Source: Dehalococcoidia bacterium
GTDB taxonomy: Bacteria; Chloroflexota; Dehalococcoidia; Bin125
Direction of reading: 5' to 3'
Assembly (NCBI GenBank): GCA_022822375.1
Contig: JAJEBU010000051.1
Coordinates: 1 to 46,018 of the forward strand
Length of the DNA stretch: 46,018 bases
Below are positions 86 to 24,200 of this stretch, piece after piece; the first letter of the stretch is position 1; the number at the start of each line of letters is the position of its first letter. Below the pieces are notes generated by a model that was not told where the DNA came from, did no database searches, and saw only the letters and a list, made by a program, of their open reading frames with translations. A program made the position numbers and the translations under genes.

Positions 86-1501
86 ATGTCAGAGCTTCGC
101 TGGGACCCGCCGGCCGGCGGCAGCGCCAACGTCGGAGAGCCGCAACGGGGCGGATCGAGCGGCGGATCCGGCGGCGCGAGCCGATGGACCATCGGCTTGC
201 TCATCTTCGTGATGATCGGCGCCGCCTTCGCGCTGGGCATCGGCGTGATGCGGATCGTGGACGCGTCGGACGGCTATCCGGCATCGCTCCGCAGCTCACG
301 AGATCTCAGCCCGCCAACCGCGGCGCCATCCGTGGTCGCACCGTCCAATGACGACCAACAACAGGCCGCCACGACGCCAGGGCGCGAGTCGCGCTTCGCG
401 ATCCTCGATGAGATCGTCGAGATTCTGGACGAGGACTTCGTCGAGCCGGACAAGTTCGCATCGATTGACACACGCGAGGCCGCCATCAGGGGCATCATCG
501 AGGCATTGGAGGACGAGCACACGGTCTTCATCGACGCTGAGCGCTACCGGCTCGCGTCGGAGGACATCGGCGGATCGTTCGAAGGCATCGGGGCGACCGT
601 GAACATCGTCGATGAGGCGATCGTGATCGTGCGGCCGTTCCGCAACTCGCCGGCGGAGCAGTCCGGGATTCGCGCGGGAGATGTGATCCTCGAGGTCGAT
701 GGCGAGTCGACATCCGGCTGGAGCTTGCAGCAGGCCGTGGCCGTGATTCGCGGGCCGCGCGGGACCGACGTCGCACTGCTCGTCCGCCATGCGGACGGCG
801 AGGAAGAGCTGGTTGTGGTCACACGCGATCGGATCGTGGTGCCCAGCGTGGAGTCGTTGCCGATCACGGACCGCTCGGGCAATCCGGTCGCAGACATTGG
901 CTACATCCTGATTCAGCAGTTCACGGAGGACACTCGCACAGAGCTGCTGGAACTGCTTGACGGCGCGCGCAACGCGGGCTTGGAACAGCTCATTGTCGAC
1001 TTGCGCAACAATCCCGGCGGCTTGCTCAGCGCCACAGTCGAGACAACCGGGGAGTTCGTGGATGAGGAGATCATCCTGCGCCAGATTGACCGTATGGGCG
1101 AGGAAGAGATCTTCCGCGACCGTTCGGGCGGGGCCGGCGTCGACCTGCAACTGGTCGTGCTGATCAACGAGCACTCGGCCTCGGGCTCGGAAGTGATGGC
1201 GGCGGCGCTGCGCGATCACGGCCGCGCCGTCCTGATCGGCGTCACCACGACCGGCAAGGGCACCGTCAACGTGCCGCGCCGGTTGTCCGACGGCAGCGTG
1301 CTCTACGTCAGCATCGCGCGCTATCTGACGCCGAACGGCCAGCAGGTCGAGGGTGTCGGGATCACGCCCGACATTGAGATTGCGATTCCCGACACCGGCT
1401 TTGAGGCCGGCCAGGACATCCAGCTGTTCGTCGCGATTGAGTATCTGCGCGGCGAGTATGATCCGTCCGCCGCGACGGAAGAGGAAGGCGATGATTCATG
1501 A
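86..1501 (+). CDS. S41 family C-terminal processing peptidase (Ctp)
   Basis: A 471-residue membrane-anchored serine protease of the tail-specific/CtpA family, which cleaves proteins near their C-termini in the cell envelope. A Gly/Ser-rich cytoplasmic N-terminus is followed by one transmembrane segment (about residues 34-58), a Gln/Ser/Thr linker, a PDZ domain (about 160-240, with GIGATV and GIRAGDVILEVDG) and the S41 catalytic domain. The motif SASGSE at 364-369 holds the likely nucleophile Ser366, and TTGKGT holds the likely general base Lys391. Their 25-residue spacing is that of the Ser/Lys dyad in E. coli Prc. The ATG at 86 follows a purine-rich GAGGGGAAGG. The stop overlaps the start of the downstream sulfurtransferase (ATGA), so the two are probably translated together. 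The family call is secure; the substrate is unknown. Confidence 0.93.
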   Translation: MSELRWDPPAGGSANVGEPQRGGSSGGSGGASRWTIGLLIFVMIGAAFALGIGVMRIVDASDGYPASLRSSRDLSPPTAAPSVVAPSNDDQQQAATTPGRESRFAILDEIVEILDEDFVEPDKFASIDTREAAIRGIIEALEDEHTVFIDAERYRLASEDIGGSFEGIGATVNIVDEAIVIVRPFRNSPAEQSGIRAGDVILEVDGESTSGWSLQQAVAVIRGPRGTDVALLVRHADGEEELVVVTRDRIVVPSVESLPITDRSGNPVADIGYILIQQFTEDTRTELLELLDGARNAGLEQLIVDLRNNPGGLLSATVETTGEFVDEEIILRQIDRMGEEEIFRDRSGGAGVDLQLVVLINEHSASGSEVMAAALRDHGRAVLIGVTTTGKGTVNVPRRLSDGSVLYVSIARYLTPNGQQVEGVGITPDIEIAIPDTGFEAGQDIQLFVAIEYLRGEYDPSAATEEEGDDS

Positions 1502-2349
1502 CGAGTCAATCCGACGGTTGGGCGCGTCCCGAGCTAATCTGCGAGACCGATTGGCTGGCCGAACACATTGACGACCCGGATGTGGTCGTGCTCGACTGCG
1601 ATCTGATCGATGCGTATCTGCGCCTGCACATCCCTGGGGCGGTCTGGTCGTTGTCGCGCTATTGGAAGACCGATCCTCGCGACGATTCGCAGATCTACGG
1701 CATGTCCGATCCGGAACAGTGGGCGCGCTTGGTCGGCCGGCTCGGCATTACGCCAGACACGACCGTCGTCGGTTACGACGGATCGGGTTCGCTCTACGCC
1801 GCGCGGACGTGGTGGACGTTCGACCGTTTCGGCCACACCAACTTCAAGATTCTCGACGGCGGACTGGACAAGTGGTACGCCGAGGGCCGCTCGCTCTCGC
1901 GCGAGAACTTCCGTCCGCAGGCGGTCGAGTATCCGACGCCGTCAGCACCGCACGACGACTCGATCTGCCGGATTGACGAGATTCCCGAAGCGATCGCTGA
2001 CGACAACCATGTCTTCTGGGACGTGCGCTCGGACGGCGAGTGGACCGGCGCCAACAAGCGCGGCACGCAGCGCGGCGGCCGCATTCCTGGCGCGGTGCAT
2101 CTGGAGTGGCTGCACACGCTGGACAGCCCGGTGCGCACGCTGAAGCCGGCCTCGGAGCTGCGCCAAATGCTGGGTGATCTGGGTATCACGCCCGAGAAGA
2201 CGGTGACCACCTATTGACAGGGCGGCATCCGTGCGGCGCACGGATACTGGCTCCTGCAACTGCTCGGCTACAACAACAGCCGCAACTACGACGCGTCCTG
2301 GCACGAGTACGGCAACGCGCTCGACCAGCCGATTGAGACGGAAGACTAG
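1498..2349 (+). CDS. two-domain rhodanese (thiosulfate/3-mercaptopyruvate sulfurtransferase), probable selenoprotein with Sec at codon 240
   Basis: Sulfurtransferase of tandem-rhodanese type. The N-terminal non-catalytic domain (about residues 15-135) carries IPGAVWSL, VVGYDGSG and ILDGGLDKW. The catalytic domain (about 155-275) carries VFWDVRSDGEW, GRIPGAVHLEW, then TTY-TGA-QGGIRAAHGYW and NYDASWHEYGN. In this family the residue after the TTY-like strand, just before the QGG(I/V)RAAH loop, is the catalytic Cys. Here its codon is TGA (2215-2217). The same frame runs on for 43 residues to TAG at 2347-2349, giving 283 residues, the usual family length. Read as stopping at TGA, the protein would lack its active site and last helices. 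A SECIS-like hairpin follows the TGA. Selenocysteine is my preferred reading; a sequencing error at one base or a nonsense mutation are the alternatives. The ATG overlaps the ctp stop. Confidence 0.8.
2218..2256 (+). promoter_or_regulatory. candidate bacterial SECIS element after the in-frame TGA
   Basis: Directly after the TGA at 2215-2217 the RNA can fold an upper stem of 8 perfect base pairs (2227-2234, ATCCGTGC, with 2238-2245, GCACGGAT) closed by a 3-nt loop GGC. A short lower stem, CAGG (2218-2221) with CCTG (2253-2256), lies across an internal loop. There are 17 nt between the TGA and the apical loop, and the loop begins with G. From established knowledge, bacterial SECIS elements lie inside the reading frame with the loop roughly 16-37 nt after UGA and a G among the first two loop bases. 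The same bases also encode the conserved GIRAAHGY segment, so part of the pairing could be coincidence. Confidence 0.6.
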
Positions 2350-3548
2350 CCGTCGAGCAGGCCGCCGAGCGCGGCGTCGACTTCGGCGAGCGGGGCGAAG
2401 GCTTCGAATCGGGCGGTGACGACTCCATCGGCGTCCACGACGAACGTCCACTCGTCGGTGTGCAACCCCCATTCCTCCAGAATGGGGGTCTCGATCGGTT
2501 CCTCACCGAGCCTGACCTGCTCGGGGTTCTCGTAGAGGTCGACGTGCACGTAGTTGGCCGCGTCCCCGTAGATCTGGCGGACTTCGGAGAGCACTTCGGC
2601 CTGCGGGCCGCAGAATGCGTTGGTGCAGAAGCCGGGCGAGGCGAACACGACGACGAACGGCTTGTCGTCGGCGACCGCGTCGGCGATGGACACGAGATAG
2701 AGGCCGGGGTCAGGAGTCTCACCAGTCGATAGGTCAACAATGTTGGCGACATCGGTCAGCGTCCGGCTGTCTGACGCCGGCGCGGATGCTCCGACAGACG
2801 GCGCGGACGTGGCTTCGGGGACGTCGAGGGCGATGCCGAGATCGGTGAAGCCGTCGCCGGCGGGCACACGCAGAATCAGGTTCCAGCGGCCGGCGTGGGT
2901 GAAGTCGATCGAGGTGACGTGAAAGCCGCGGACGCCATCGGGGAAGCGCGCGAATCGGGCGACGACTTCATGCGCGCTGCCCTCCGCAGCATCAGGCGCG
3001 ACGCTGACCGCGATCGCAGGGAACTCGACCAGGCCTTGCGGCCCCTCGATCACGACCGAGATGCGGTGCTCGCCCGGCGAAATGTCGGGAGTTCCCAGTG
3101 CCAGTGTGTAGTCGTTGTCAAAGACGTAGACCGGATATCCGCCGTCTCGCAACAGCTGCAAGCGCGGGCTCAGGGCGTCGTAGTCCGCTGGTTCGACGAT
3201 CGGGATCGAGCCGCCGGGACTTGATGCTTGCGAGGCGTGCTGGTCGGACGCGCCAGAGTCGGCGGTGGACTGTGGTTGATCATCTGCGACCTGCGCCTGT
3301 TCTTGCGCCTGCCCATCTTCTTGCGATTGCGATGGTGTTGCCTGCGATTGTGGCTGAGCGCTCGACTCGTTCGAGGAACGGTCCTGCGCATCTGTGGACT
3401 GCTCTGATTGCCGCTGTTCCGTCTGCTGCGGCTGATCCGCCGTGGTCTCCTGCTGGGCCCCGTCGGAGCTGTCGGAGCCGCTGGAGCAGGCGGCGAGCGC
3501 CAGCATCGCGGCGGTTACGGCGGCGATGGTGATCAATGATCGGATCAT
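2346..3548 (-). CDS. secreted lipoprotein with C-terminal thioredoxin-like domain
   Basis: A 400-residue predicted lipoprotein. A short signal peptide ends in a lipobox (LALAAC). About 90 Ser/Gln/Asp-rich residues of low complexity follow as a tether. Next comes a beta-rich module with PVYVFDNDYTLALGTPDI and PGEHRISVVIEG. The C-terminal thioredoxin-like domain has FVVVFASPGFCTNAFC with two cysteines four residues apart (CTNAFC), then VHVDLYENPEQ and TFVVDADGVVTARFE. The spacing differs from the classical CxxC, so a redox, metal-binding or purely structural role is possible. The ATG at 3548 follows GAGGACCACC; an upstream TTG in frame is less likely. Its stop shares CTAG with the convergent rhodanese. 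It lies 39 nt after the DipZ-like lipoprotein gene and is probably co-transcribed with it. Confidence 0.8.
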   Translation of the reverse strand: MIRSLITIAAVTAAMLALAACSSGSDSSDGAQQETTADQPQQTEQRQSEQSTDAQDRSSNESSAQPQSQATPSQSQEDGQAQEQAQVADDQPQSTADSGASDQHASQASSPGGSIPIVEPADYDALSPRLQLLRDGGYPVYVFDNDYTLALGTPDISPGEHRISVVIEGPQGLVEFPAIAVSVAPDAAEGSAHEVVARFARFPDGVRGFHVTSIDFTHAGRWNLILRVPAGDGFTDLGIALDVPEATSAPSVGASAPASDSRTLTDVANIVDLSTGETPDPGLYLVSIADAVADDKPFVVVFASPGFCTNAFCGPQAEVLSEVRQIYGDAANYVHVDLYENPEQVRLGEEPIETPILEEWGLHTDEWTFVVDADGVVTARFEAFAPLAEVDAALGGLLDG

Positions 3549-3587
3549 GGTGGTCCTCAATGGTCGGGCGTTGGTTCTGTGCTGAGA

Positions 3588-5180
3588 TTACTCGCCGCCG
3601 ACGTAGGCGCCGAAGGTGTAGGCAAAGACGCGGAACTGGTCCGAGTTCGAGCGCAGGATCAGCTCGCCCTCGCCGAACTCAGGCAGGAAGATCAGCCGGT
3701 AGAGATCGTTCTCGGTGACGCGGATGAACGAGCGCCCGTCGGCGTCCCATTTGATGTGTTCCGCGGCGATCGAGCGGTCCAGCCAGTCGCCGTCCCACTG
3801 CACGTAGACGTCGTAGGGGTCGCCGTCCTCTGCGACGGTCAGGACGACGTTGGCCGTTCTCCCGCGCACGAGCAGCGCCATGTAGTCCTCGAGATTCTTC
3901 GTTTCGCGCGCATGCACGATGGCCTGGGTTTCGGTCGTCCACAGACCCTCGAGGTACCAGAGGTTGTGCTCGCGGTCGTCGGTGTCAATGTCGCGATAGT
4001 GCGTGGGGATGCCGGGCCCAGCCAGGAAGTAAGTCTCCTGACCGGCGTAAGGGCCGCCTGAGCCGGTGTTGCGGCTCCAACCGGCGTAGAGCTCGCGAGT
4101 CTGACGCGGATTCCCGCTCTCGCGCGTGGGGACCGCCGCGTTCACCCCGAATGGGACGTCGGAGAGGTCCTTCCCGACCGCTTCCAGCGCTTCGCGAATC
4201 TCCTGCTCGGTCTCCTCATAGTGGCCCTCGCCGAAGTGGGAGTAGCGGATGCCCATCGGCGACCCGTCGTCGGTCGGACCGATCAGATACTTGGCGGGCC
4301 AGTAGCGGTTGCGAAATGCGCGCCAAGTGCGGTAGTCGTTGTCGATCGGCACGTCGTACTGGATGCCGTGCTCGGCGATGGCTGCGCTGATGTTGGCGGG
4401 CAGCTTCTCGAACTCGAACTCGGGCGTGTGCACGCCGAGGATGACCAGCCCATGATCGCGGTACTTCGCGTCCCACGCGGTCAGGAAGGGCAGCGTGCGA
4501 ACGCAGTTGATGCAGGTGTAGGTCCAGAAGTCGATCAGTACGACATTGCCCTTGGCCAGTTCGAGCGCGATCGAGGTCTCCTCGCCGTTCAGCCAACCGT
4601 TCAGTCCGGTCAGCTCTGGGGCGGTGGCTTGAGCGAGGATCTCCTCCGCTCGCAGGGTCAACGCATCTCGTTCCGGCGGCTCTGAGGGCTCGGAGTCTTG
4701 CGTCTGCTGAATCTGCTGCGCTGCCTGCTCGGACTGCTGTGGTGCCTCCTGCTGCGACTGCTGGGCGGGTTGGTCTTGCGCGGCTGACTGCTGATCAGTC
4801 GACTCTGTCGTCTGCTGTTGGGATTCCGTCTGTTCGGATGGCTGGGAGTCAGCCGCTGGCGAGTCGTCCTGCTGCTGATCGCTGGAGGTTGTCTGTGCGG
4901 CTGCGGTCGGCTCATCGCCGTCGTCATCCGACTGACGCTGTTGTGCCGCAGGTGGGTCGTCGGCCTGTTGCTGCTGCTCCGCGCCGTCCGAGCGGATCTC
5001 GACGGCAGCTTGTTGCCGCTGTTCCTCTTGCTCCTCTTGCTCCTCTTGCGCCGAGGTCTGTGGTTGTTGTTGCTGCTGCTGCTGTTGCTGCTGTGGGTCG
5101 TCGTCCGAAGCGCAGGCGAGCAGGAACGCGCTGAGCAGGAAGAGGACGGCGGCGAGGGAAATGGATCTGAGTGTCATCAT
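3588..5180 (-). CDS. thioredoxin-fold lipoprotein, soluble part of DipZ type
   Basis: A 530-residue envelope protein. The signal peptide ends in a lipobox (FLLAC), followed by DDD, a run of ten Gln, and about 140 residues rich in Gln, Glu, Ser and Asp. The thioredoxin-like domain begins near residue 195 and contains VVLIDFWTYTCINCVRTLPF, with the CINC redox pair, then GLVILGVHTPEFEFEK and the cis-Pro region YWPAKYLI. After it comes the DipZ C-terminal carbohydrate-binding-like domain (TETYFLAG-type strand, LWYLEGLW, IKWDADGRSFIRVTENDLY, VFAYTFGAYVGG). Mycobacterial DipZ has these two domains fused to a CcdA membrane part, which is absent here and replaced by a lipid anchor. Likely role: extracytoplasmic thiol-disulfide exchange. 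ATG at 5180 or 5177; no strong ribosome binding site is visible. Confidence 0.85.
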   Translation of the reverse strand: MMTLRSISLAAVLFLLSAFLLACASDDDPQQQQQQQQQQPQTSAQEEQEEQEEQRQQAAVEIRSDGAEQQQQADDPPAAQQRQSDDDGDEPTAAAQTTSSDQQQDDSPAADSQPSEQTESQQQTTESTDQQSAAQDQPAQQSQQEAPQQSEQAAQQIQQTQDSEPSEPPERDALTLRAEEILAQATAPELTGLNGWLNGEETSIALELAKGNVVLIDFWTYTCINCVRTLPFLTAWDAKYRDHGLVILGVHTPEFEFEKLPANISAAIAEHGIQYDVPIDNDYRTWRAFRNRYWPAKYLIGPTDDGSPMGIRYSHFGEGHYEETEQEIREALEAVGKDLSDVPFGVNAAVPTRESGNPRQTRELYAGWSRNTGSGGPYAGQETYFLAGPGIPTHYRDIDTDDREHNLWYLEGLWTTETQAIVHARETKNLEDYMALLVRGRTANVVLTVAEDGDPYDVYVQWDGDWLDRSIAAEHIKWDADGRSFIRVTENDLYRLIFLPEFGEGELILRSNSDQFRVFAYTFGAYVGGE

Positions 5181-10985: not shown

Positions 10986-11342
10986 GGGGACGAAAGGGTT
11001 CGACAGCGGTTGACTGCGCATTGCTGCGTGCCGAGCTGGCGTAACTCGAAAACTGCGCCAACCTTCCTATACACGGCGAATCCAAGGAGTTTGCCCTCGC
11101 TGCCTAACCGCGGCGACGTCACCCTGAACTGAATCCGAACAGCGACGGGACTGGCGCCGACCAAACCGGATGCCCGCTGCGCGATGTCGGGAGCGCGGCG
11201 GAAAGACCACTCCGACTGACCTGTCCGTAACGGTAGGCCGACGCGCCGGCGTTCAGGGACACCGCAAGCGACGGACACGCACGTAGACGCACTGGGAAGC
11301 GGCCGTCTGGACGGGGAGTTCGATTCTCCCCCGTCTCCACCA
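10986..11342 (+). ncRNA. ssrA: transfer-messenger RNA (tmRNA), one-piece
   Basis: A 357-nt tmRNA for rescue of stalled ribosomes. The 5' end GGGGACG (10986-10992) pairs fully, with one G-U, with CGTCTCC near the 3' end (11332-11338), followed by A and an encoded CCA (11340-11342). The 5' GGGTTCGAC and the 3' T-arm GAGTTCGATTCTC are the usual tRNA-like elements. The tag frame ends at TAA (11105-11107) and reads back as ANLPIHGESKEFALAA if the resume codon is GCC at 11057; a start at GAA 11048 is also possible. The terminal ALAA is the standard protease degron. smpB lies upstream. Confidence 0.96.
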
Positions 11343-21236: not shown

Positions 21237-24200
21237 GATCCGGCCTCCGCGGTCTGCGGACGCGCCTCATCGCGCCGGCCGCGCAGCTCGTTGCGCGCCT
21301 CATCGCGCAGGGCGTACAAGGCCGAAATCGCCTCGAGCGGCGTGATCCCGTCCACATCCAGGTCGGCCAGGTCGTGGACGAGCGGATGCCAGAGCGGCGC
21401 GGGTTCCGGCCCCGGCTCGAGCGGCGGCATCAGCATCAGCTGGGGCGGCGGCGGATCGGCTGGGACTGCGGCGGCCGGCGCCGGGCCGCGCTCGAGCGCG
21501 GCCAGCAGCTCGGCCGCTCGGGCCACGACGGGCTGAGGCAGCCCCGCCTGCGCGGCGACCTGCACGCCGTAGGAGCGGTCGGCCGCGCCCGGCGCCACCT
21601 GGTAGCGGAACTCGAGCCCGCCGTCTGCACGCTCCTCGACCTGGACCGAGCAGTTGGAGACGCGCGGCAGCTGGCCGGCCAGGGCCGTGAGCTCGTGGAA
21701 GTGGGTCGCGAACAGCGTCCGCGGGCCACGCCCTGACGGGGCCGGCTCCTTCCCCGAACGGGCGCGGGTGTTGCCCGAACGGGCCCGGGCGTCATCTGCG
21801 GGCGGGCAGCCGCCGGCCAGCGCTTCGGTCACCGCCTGGGCGATGGCCAGACCGTCCCAGGTCGAGGTGCCGCGCCCGATCTCGTCCAGCAGCAGCAGCG
21901 AGCGATCGGTCGCGCCGCGCAGCAGCCGCGCGGTCTCGAGCATCTCGACCATGAACGTCGAGCGACCCTCTGCGAGGTCGTCGTGGGCGCCGACCCGCGC
22001 GAAGATGCGGTCGACCAGGCCCACCCGCGCGCGCCGCGCGGGCACGAACGAGCCCAGCTGGGCGAGGACGACGATGAGCGCCTGCTGGCGCAGGTAGGTC
22101 GACTTGCCGGCCATGTTCGGTCCGGTCACGAGCAACAGCTGGGGCGCGCGCACGCCGTCGTCTGAGAGCCGCAGATCGTTGGGCACGAACGCGCCCTCGG
22201 CGGCCGCGGCCTCGACCACCGGATGGCGGCCGCCCTCGATCTCGAGCTCGCCCGTGTGGTCCAGCTCGGGCCGCGTCCAGCCGCGCTCGGCCGCGGCGCG
22301 GGCCAGCGCGGCCGCCGCGTCGAGCCGGGCCAAGGCGCCCGCGATCTCACGCACCCGCGCCGCCTCGCCCGTCAGCTGCGCCCGCAGCCGGTCGACGACC
22401 GCGCGCTCGGCCGCGGCCAGCGCCGCCTCGGCCGCCTCCAGCGTGCGCTCGAGCCCCAGCAGCGCGGGCTCGGTGAAGCGTTCGCGGTCGCGCAGCGACT
22501 GGCGCCGCTGCCAGTGCTCGGGCGCGCGCGCGGTCTGGCTGCGCGGCACGTCGATCAGGTAGCCGAAGGTGCGGTGATAGGACACCTTCAGGTTCGCGAT
22601 GCCGCTCTCCGCGCGGAGCGCGTCCTCACGCTCGGCGATCGCGAGCCGCGCCGCCTCCGTCTCGGCGCGCGCCACATCGACCGCGCGGTCGACGCCGGCC
22701 TGCACCACACCGCGGCCGTAGTCCTGGGCCGGCTCAGGCTCGAGCGCGGCCGAGAGCGCCGCCGCGGCTCGAGGGGCCGGCCCCAGGCGGCGCGCCAGCT
22801 CGGCGAGCGCGGCCAGATCCGGAGCCCCGTCTCCAGCGTCGTGCGCCGCTCCCTGGGCCGCCCCCTGCGCTATCCCCTGTGCCGCGTCGTTCGGCGCGCC
22901 GGCTCCAGCGCGGTCGTCCGCCGCCGCGGACGGCGGCGGCCCAGGGGGCGGTCCGGTGAACTGCCCGTCCACCTGCGCGGCCACCTGCGCGCCCAGTCGT
23001 GCCGCGCGGTCCAGCCCGTGGGCGAGCGCGGCCAGTTCGGGCGGAGCGGCCAGGTCCGAGACGGTGCGGGCGAAGAGCCGCTCGAGATCGGGCGCGCCCT
23101 TGAGGCCAGCCTCGACCGTGCGGCGCACGGACGGACGCCGGGTCAGCGCCTCGACGCGGTCCAGCCGCCGCCCGATCCGTTCGAGGTCGAGCAGCGGCGC
23201 GGCCACCGCGGCCCGCAGCCAACGTCGGCCGGGCGCTGTGGCGCAGCGGTCCAGGACATCCAGCAGCGTGCGCGGCCGTCGCCGTCCCGATCCGGCCGGC
23301 GCCTCGCGGCCGGCGCGCCCGCCCGGGCTGCCCGGCTCGACCAGCGCCAGCGCTCGCTGGGTGGCCGCATCCCACTCCAGCCGCGCGCCCGGCTCGAGCC
23401 AGCGTGGCGGGCCCAGCTGCAGCGCCGCCGGACATCCCTCCCCACGGGCCAGCGCGCCGTTCGAGACCTGCAGAGGTGCATGATCTGGCGCACGGTCTGG
23501 CGCATGGTCTGGAGCATGGTCTGGAGCATCGTCTCGTGCCGTGCCGTGCACCGTGTCTGGCGCATGGTCGTGGCTGGGGTCGTGGCTGGGGCCCGGCGGG
23601 GCGGGCACGGCGCTCGACAGATAGCGGACCAGCGCACCCAGCGCACCCAGGGCGGCCGGCCGCTCGTCCAGGCCGAAGGCGGCCGGCGGTGCGTGCCACT
23701 GTTGATCGAGCATCCGCGCCGCCTCGTCCGCGCGGAAATCGGCCGCCGGCCGCGGGCGCACCGCCAGTTCCAGCGCGTCAGGCGCGTCTGTCGCCTCAGG
23801 CAGGACCAGCTCGCGCGCGCCCAACCGCTCGAGCAGCGCGGCCGCTTCCTGCCACAGCTCAGCCTCAGGCGCGGCGGACTCCCCGCGGCCCGGTTCGCGG
23901 CCTTGGTCGCGCGAGACCTCGCTGACGTGGCACTGGCCGGTCGTGATGTCGGCCGCGGCCAGACCCAGCGTCCAGCGCCGACCCCGCCGCGTCAGCTGCG
24001 CGGCGGCGCAGGCCGACGCTTGCCCCGCTTCGAGCAGGGCCGGCTCGAGCGCCGTGCCCGGCGAGACCACGCGCACCACGCCGCGCCGCACCAGCGAACG
24101 CGAAGCGCGCGCCTCGCGGGGATCTTCGAGCTGCTCGCAGATCGCGACCCGGTGCCCGGCCTCGACGAGCCGCGCCAGATGCTGGTCGACCGAGCGGACC

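Follow-up and report, generated by a model that had tools for sequence, protein, structure and literature searches.

A predicted SECIS hairpin that accompanies UGA in the selenocysteine-containing rhodanese genes of Chloroflexota

Selenocysteine (Sec)-containing rhodaneses of the COG2897/cd01449 type have been predicted since 2005, in Sargasso Sea data (PMC1088965) and in GOS data (PMC2398784), and are included in reviews (PMC9312934; PMC13188914, as 'form 4', UxxG). These earlier entries also had predicted SECIS elements (PMC1088965, PMC2398784, PMC13188914). The bacterial SECIS (bSECIS) model allows an apical loop of 3-9 nt, an upper stem of 4-16 bp, a G within the first two loop positions, usually as G[G/U], a UGA-to-loop spacing of 16-37 nt and a folding energy of at most -7.5 kcal/mol (PMC13188914). 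Among the papers searched, none analyses the rhodanese SECIS element in Chloroflexota. Because a bacterial SECIS lies inside coding sequence, selection on the RNA is usually hard to tell from selection on the protein. The rhodanese family provides a clean natural control, as the same peptide occurs in Sec and Cys forms, over wide divergence and with repeated switching between them.

The DNA analysed (the window) is a stretch of 46,018 nt from a Dehalococcoidia bacterium. The ORF at 1498-2349 has 283 codons with a TGA in frame. When translated with read-through, its product matched PF00581 (8e-34) over two stretches, corresponding to two rhodanese domains, and also matched solved thiosulfate sulfurtransferases, the best being PDB 1uar (2e-44). 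In the alignment to 1uar, residue 240, encoded by the TGA, lies opposite the Cys of the C-terminal domain. The sequence thus predicts two rhodanese domains, the second with Sec in the position of its catalytic Cys, and the protein is probably a selenocysteine-containing rhodanese in which Sec takes the place of the sulfur-carrying Cys. Under standard annotation the ORF would close at 2217, ahead of the active site; the Sec reading corrects the gene. The closest records are metagenome genomes of Dehalococcoidia/Chloroflexota, some of them sponge-associated. The features of the gene, and of the hairpin downstream of the TGA, are as follows.

1498-2349 (+): predicted Sec-containing two-domain rhodanese (SseA/COG2897 type), Sec at residue 240; 283 aa, TAG stop
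2215-2217 (+): in-frame TGA, the catalytic Cys codon, predicted from the TGA/Cys column in homologues to be read as selenocysteine
2218-2226 (+): spacer CAGGGCGGC between TGA and stem, by direct reading
2227-2234 (+): 5' arm of the putative SECIS stem, ATCCGTGC; conserved core CCGTGC at 2229-2234, paired in homologues
2235-2237 (+): loop at the stem apex, GGC here and GUC in some relatives; its first base, 2235, is the third, synonymous base of the Ala246 codon
2238-2245 (+): 3' arm of the putative SECIS stem, GCACGGAT; conserved core GCACGG at 2238-2243, paired in homologues
2218-2221 (+): suggested outer stem, its 5' arm CAGG; seen in the sequence, RNA role unsupported
2253-2256 (+): suggested outer stem, its 3' arm CCTG; seen in the sequence, RNA role unsupported

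Two ORFs beside the rhodanese on the opposite strand, 2346-3560 (-) and 3588-5180 (-), encode what look like redox lipoproteins with a thioredoxin fold and linkers rich in Gln. Their motifs are CxxxxC (FCTNAFC) and CxxC (CINC), and Cys is used in both proteins.

The genome to which the window belongs contains the complete set of genes expected of a Sec-decoding host: tRNA-Sec (66.4 bits, anticodon tca), SelA (516 bits), SelB (323 bits) and SelD (350 bits), the last with its own in-frame TGA in the context CGGUGSK. SelD (G000:C110:7468-8409, L018) would itself be a Sec protein, and its predicted hairpin loop likewise lies 17 nt past the TGA. SelA was found in all 48 good-quality genomes with a Sec-rhodanese, against 22 of 32 good-quality genomes with a Cys form.

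An earlier note on the window had described a perfect 8-bp stem beginning 9 nt past the TGA, with 17 nt from TGA to loop and a G as the first loop base. Reading of 2215-2245 confirmed each of these, the arms being 2227-2234 and 2238-2245. The same note placed these values inside the ranges for bacterial SECIS elements, and the 3-nt loop, 8-bp stem and 17-nt spacing do lie within every limit of the model (PMC13188914), as does the GGC loop with its leading G. The RNA fold of the UGA plus 42 nt has an energy of -22.4 kcal/mol, matched by one of 200 dinucleotide-shuffled sequences (z -2.96), and a 36 nt version of the hairpin region gave -18.4, both below the threshold of -7.5 kcal/mol. When the peptide was held fixed and its codons were resampled by local usage, perfect stems of 8 bp within the permitted zone arose in 41 of 20,000 sequences (0.2%), but an overall stability at least equal to the native one was reached in 971 of 20,000 (4.9%). 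The lone hairpin is therefore moderately striking, its stability is unremarkable for a GC-rich peptide, and because of this 4.9% it is insufficient by itself; the decisive evidence is comparative.

Homologues were sought in 400 genomes of the phylum and 393 of the class, all homologues coming from genome or metagenome assemblies, and their regions were then retrieved. In the alignment column of the catalytic Cys, 91 Chloroflexota genes have TGA and 60 have TGC or TGT; these counts exclude one SAR324 and two gammaproteobacterial sequences, and the 91 include close relatives and the same genomes recorded twice via two routes. Statistics on synonymous sites and covariation were therefore restricted to representatives less than 80% identical (51 Sec and 40 Cys). 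The loose published SECIS rules were satisfied by 90/91 Sec genes and also by 48/60 Cys genes. As they fail to separate the two groups, a register-specific test was used, in which the stem had to have 5 bp or more and its G[G/U]C loop had to lie 17 nt past the codon, neither more nor less. By this strict criterion, which was set after the sequences had been seen, the hairpin is present in 84 of the 91 TGA genes and in none of the 60 Cys genes.

All 14 close relatives have the TGA and a nearly letter-perfect hairpin, and Sec genes down to 40% identity with the window gene carry ATCCGTGCGGCGCACGG or a compensated version of it, with GGC or GUC as the loop in 84/91. Cys genes encoding the same Gln-Gly-Gly-Ile-Arg-Ala-Ala-His use many different codon combinations. 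The earlier note had named two observations that would speak against a SECIS, TGA orthologues with no foldable stem and Cys relatives that keep the stem equally well. In Chloroflexota, the 84 TGA genes have the stem in the same register and several of the others have a shifted one; no Cys gene has the strict hairpin. The exact hairpin is missing in seven of the 91 TGA genes, one of which (L098) has a mismatch in the stem. Four related Sec-rhodaneses of one family (f92; L119, L121, L124 and L127) have another hairpin, whose loop of 4 nt lies 20 nt past the TGA. Their stems are placed like those of some Cys genes, and their own genomes or relatives hold Cys versions too; the assignment of these four as SECIS elements is less certain.

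The earlier note had proposed a comparison of third codon positions with Cys homologues. This showed that the synonymous sites of the stem and the loop G are frozen in the Sec genes only. Codons 244-248 have a synonymous identity of 0.88 in the 51 Sec representatives, the highest of any five-codon window (gene median 0.45); in the 40 Cys representatives the values for the same codons are 0.53, 0.26, 0.28, 0.36 and 0.57, or about 0.40 overall. The third base of Ala246, which is unpaired, synonymous and the first base of the loop, is G in 49/51 Sec against 10/30 Cys genes. Arg245 is encoded by CGT, a locally rare codon (16 of 164 Arg codons), in 43/44 Sec genes with His248 against 5/27 Cys genes.

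Covariance analysis of the orthologues, also proposed in the earlier note, revealed covariation of the pair 2229-2243, which is C-G in 34, G-C in 10 and A-U in 2 of the 51 Sec representatives. On the proposed structure 18 double-change cells were counted in the Sec genes compared with 6.8 in shuffles, none of 500 shuffles reaching as high; the same count showed no excess in the Cys genes. Complementarity between the third base of codon 244 and the second base of codon 249 is seen in 43 of 48 Sec genes and in 6 of 36 Cys genes. In codons, this couples ATC (Ile) to GGN (Gly), GTG (Val) or ATG (Met) to GCN (Ala), and ATA (Ile) to GTA (Val). The six inner pairs of the stem are kept in 46-51 of the 51 Sec representatives and the two outermost pairs in only 12 and 35. 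The outer CAGG/CCTG stem, which the earlier note had added to the hairpin, can be read in the letters at 2218-2221 and 2253-2256 but was rejected as an RNA feature: it is paired in 74.5% of Sec and 67.6% of Cys genes, which is not distinctive, and its closing pair is kept in 23/51 Sec genes. The functional core, as judged from the alignment, is thus about 6 bp plus the loop. The Sec/Cys contrast shows in this way which bases the RNA needs: some 6 bp and the G of the loop, but not the lower stem.

The sequence is nearly frozen because the same bases must both encode I/V-R-A-A-H-G/A and form the stem. Few codon solutions remain: CGT, GCG, GCG and CAC, together with a codon at residue 244 that matches residue 249. 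Pairing and peptide together suffice, and no special recognition is needed. That the frozen CGUGC-G[G/U]C-GCACG at a fixed 17 nt might reflect a lineage-specific, sequence-reading SelB of Chloroflexota is unlikely.

Natural switches between Sec and Cys provide a further comparison. On a protein tree built without the Sec/Cys column, at least 8 changes, counted without regard to direction, fall on well-supported branches and 12 in all. In independent pairs taken over the well-supported branches, the Sec partner was the one with the strict hairpin in 6 cases against 0, and 2 were undecided (median p 0.03); for a looser hairpin the ratio was about 7:0. One pair of sisters is a clean natural experiment. 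L052 (Sec) and L173 (Cys) are 78% identical and both encode Arg-Ala-Ser-His; with Arg245-His248 unchanged, what removes the stem from L173 is mainly a set of synonymous differences: GCG/GCA, TCG/TCC and CAC/CAT. The L173 genome (G470) still has SelA, so the hairpin difference tracks codon 240 and not the whole machinery. Synonymous sites, covariation and switches all point to a stem-loop that is selected at the RNA level and accompanies UGA rather than Cys.

Could the hairpin arise merely as a by-product, from high GC content and from the peptide IRAAHG, whose Arg-Ala-Ala-His codons are near-palindromic? The 4.9% of resamplings with equal stability and the 48/60 Cys genes that pass the loose rule would fit this, but Cys genes with the same peptide freely use CGC, CGG or AGG, GCC or GCT, and CAT, and none of the 60 has the hairpin. 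In Sec genes, by contrast, the rare CGT (43/44), GCG and the unpaired loop G are fixed. The Sec/Cys contrast in these alignments already refutes the by-product explanation, leaving it next to no probability. It is just as improbable that the TGA is a true stop, a sequencing error or a pseudogene mutation ending a truncated rhodanese of 239 aa. Closing the ORF at 2217 is what standard annotation would do, but the TGA is common to 91 homologues and the catalytic residue would be lost. Codons 250-283 after it are still in frame and conserved, and the changes downstream of it in close relatives are mostly synonymous (in L025, for example, 7 synonymous and 2 non-synonymous); SelA, moreover, is present in 48/48 good-quality genomes.

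The different hairpins of some TGA homologues might suggest that the element serves in frameshifting, pausing or mRNA stability, Sec being decoded via other signals. But the hairpin comes and goes with the UGA and has the published SECIS distance and the published G[G/U]N loop, and this explanation too has only a very slight chance of being correct. The hairpin at 2227-2245 is thus most probably a bacterial SECIS within the coding sequence of a Sec-rhodanese, a reading to which we give a probability of about 0.95.

In a search of the genome with a covariance model, the rhodanese hairpin was the sole match (E 2e-6). The next (E 3.1), at window positions 23116-23130 (+), is a CCGTGCGGCGCACGG hairpin 18 nt past a TGA; it lies on the antisense strand of a MutS-like ORF, and we regard it as a chance match. 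Such a match illustrates that hairpin rules alone yield false matches in GC-rich genomes. An Rfam scan of the window reported a tmRNA only, its gene lying at 10986-11342 (+) with the tag peptide GESKEFALAA. Outside Chloroflexota, six SAR324 rhodaneses (L037, L183, L188, L189, L203 and L204) have TGA at the catalytic Cys, in the peptide QGGYRSS[HL]AY. No clear common standard SECIS hairpin was found among these six, and SelA was not found in G739, the single SAR324 assembly checked. Possibly they represent an atypical SECIS class.

In the proposed mechanism the mRNA, which can fold into a short stem of 8 bp (about 6 of them conserved), bears a G[G/U]C loop 17 nt past the UGA. By analogy with what is established for Sec insertion in bacteria, SelB together with GTP and Sec-tRNA(Sec) would bind the loop and upper stem, and Sec would be delivered to the UGA while the ribosome stands there; without delivery by SelB, translation would halt ahead of the catalytic residue. 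The enzyme would then carry sulfur on selenium.

The SECIS of the E. coli fdhF type is a stem-loop inside the ORF past the UGA, with a G in the loop and a bulged U. The rhodanese hairpin is similarly a stem-loop within the ORF after the UGA and has the loop G, but the bulged U is not seen in it; sequence similarity is not claimed. With the bSECIS consensus (PMC13188914 Fig. 2 / bSECISearch) it shares the 3-nt G[G/U]N loop, a stem in the 4-16 bp range, the 17-nt spacing and a fold below -7.5 kcal/mol. It differs in having the minimal 3-nt loop without a conserved lower stem, and in a sequence that is almost frozen among proteins just ~40-50% identical. Compared by description with the known Sec-rhodaneses (COG2897/SseA/cd01449), the protein encoded in the window likewise has two domains and Sec at the catalytic Cys, and its UQGG fits the UxxG pattern. 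Those reports are predictions from few sequences, whereas here 91 Chloroflexota genes were compared at codon level and by covariation. This kind of Sec-rhodanese with a SECIS is already known; the depth of the evidence is new.
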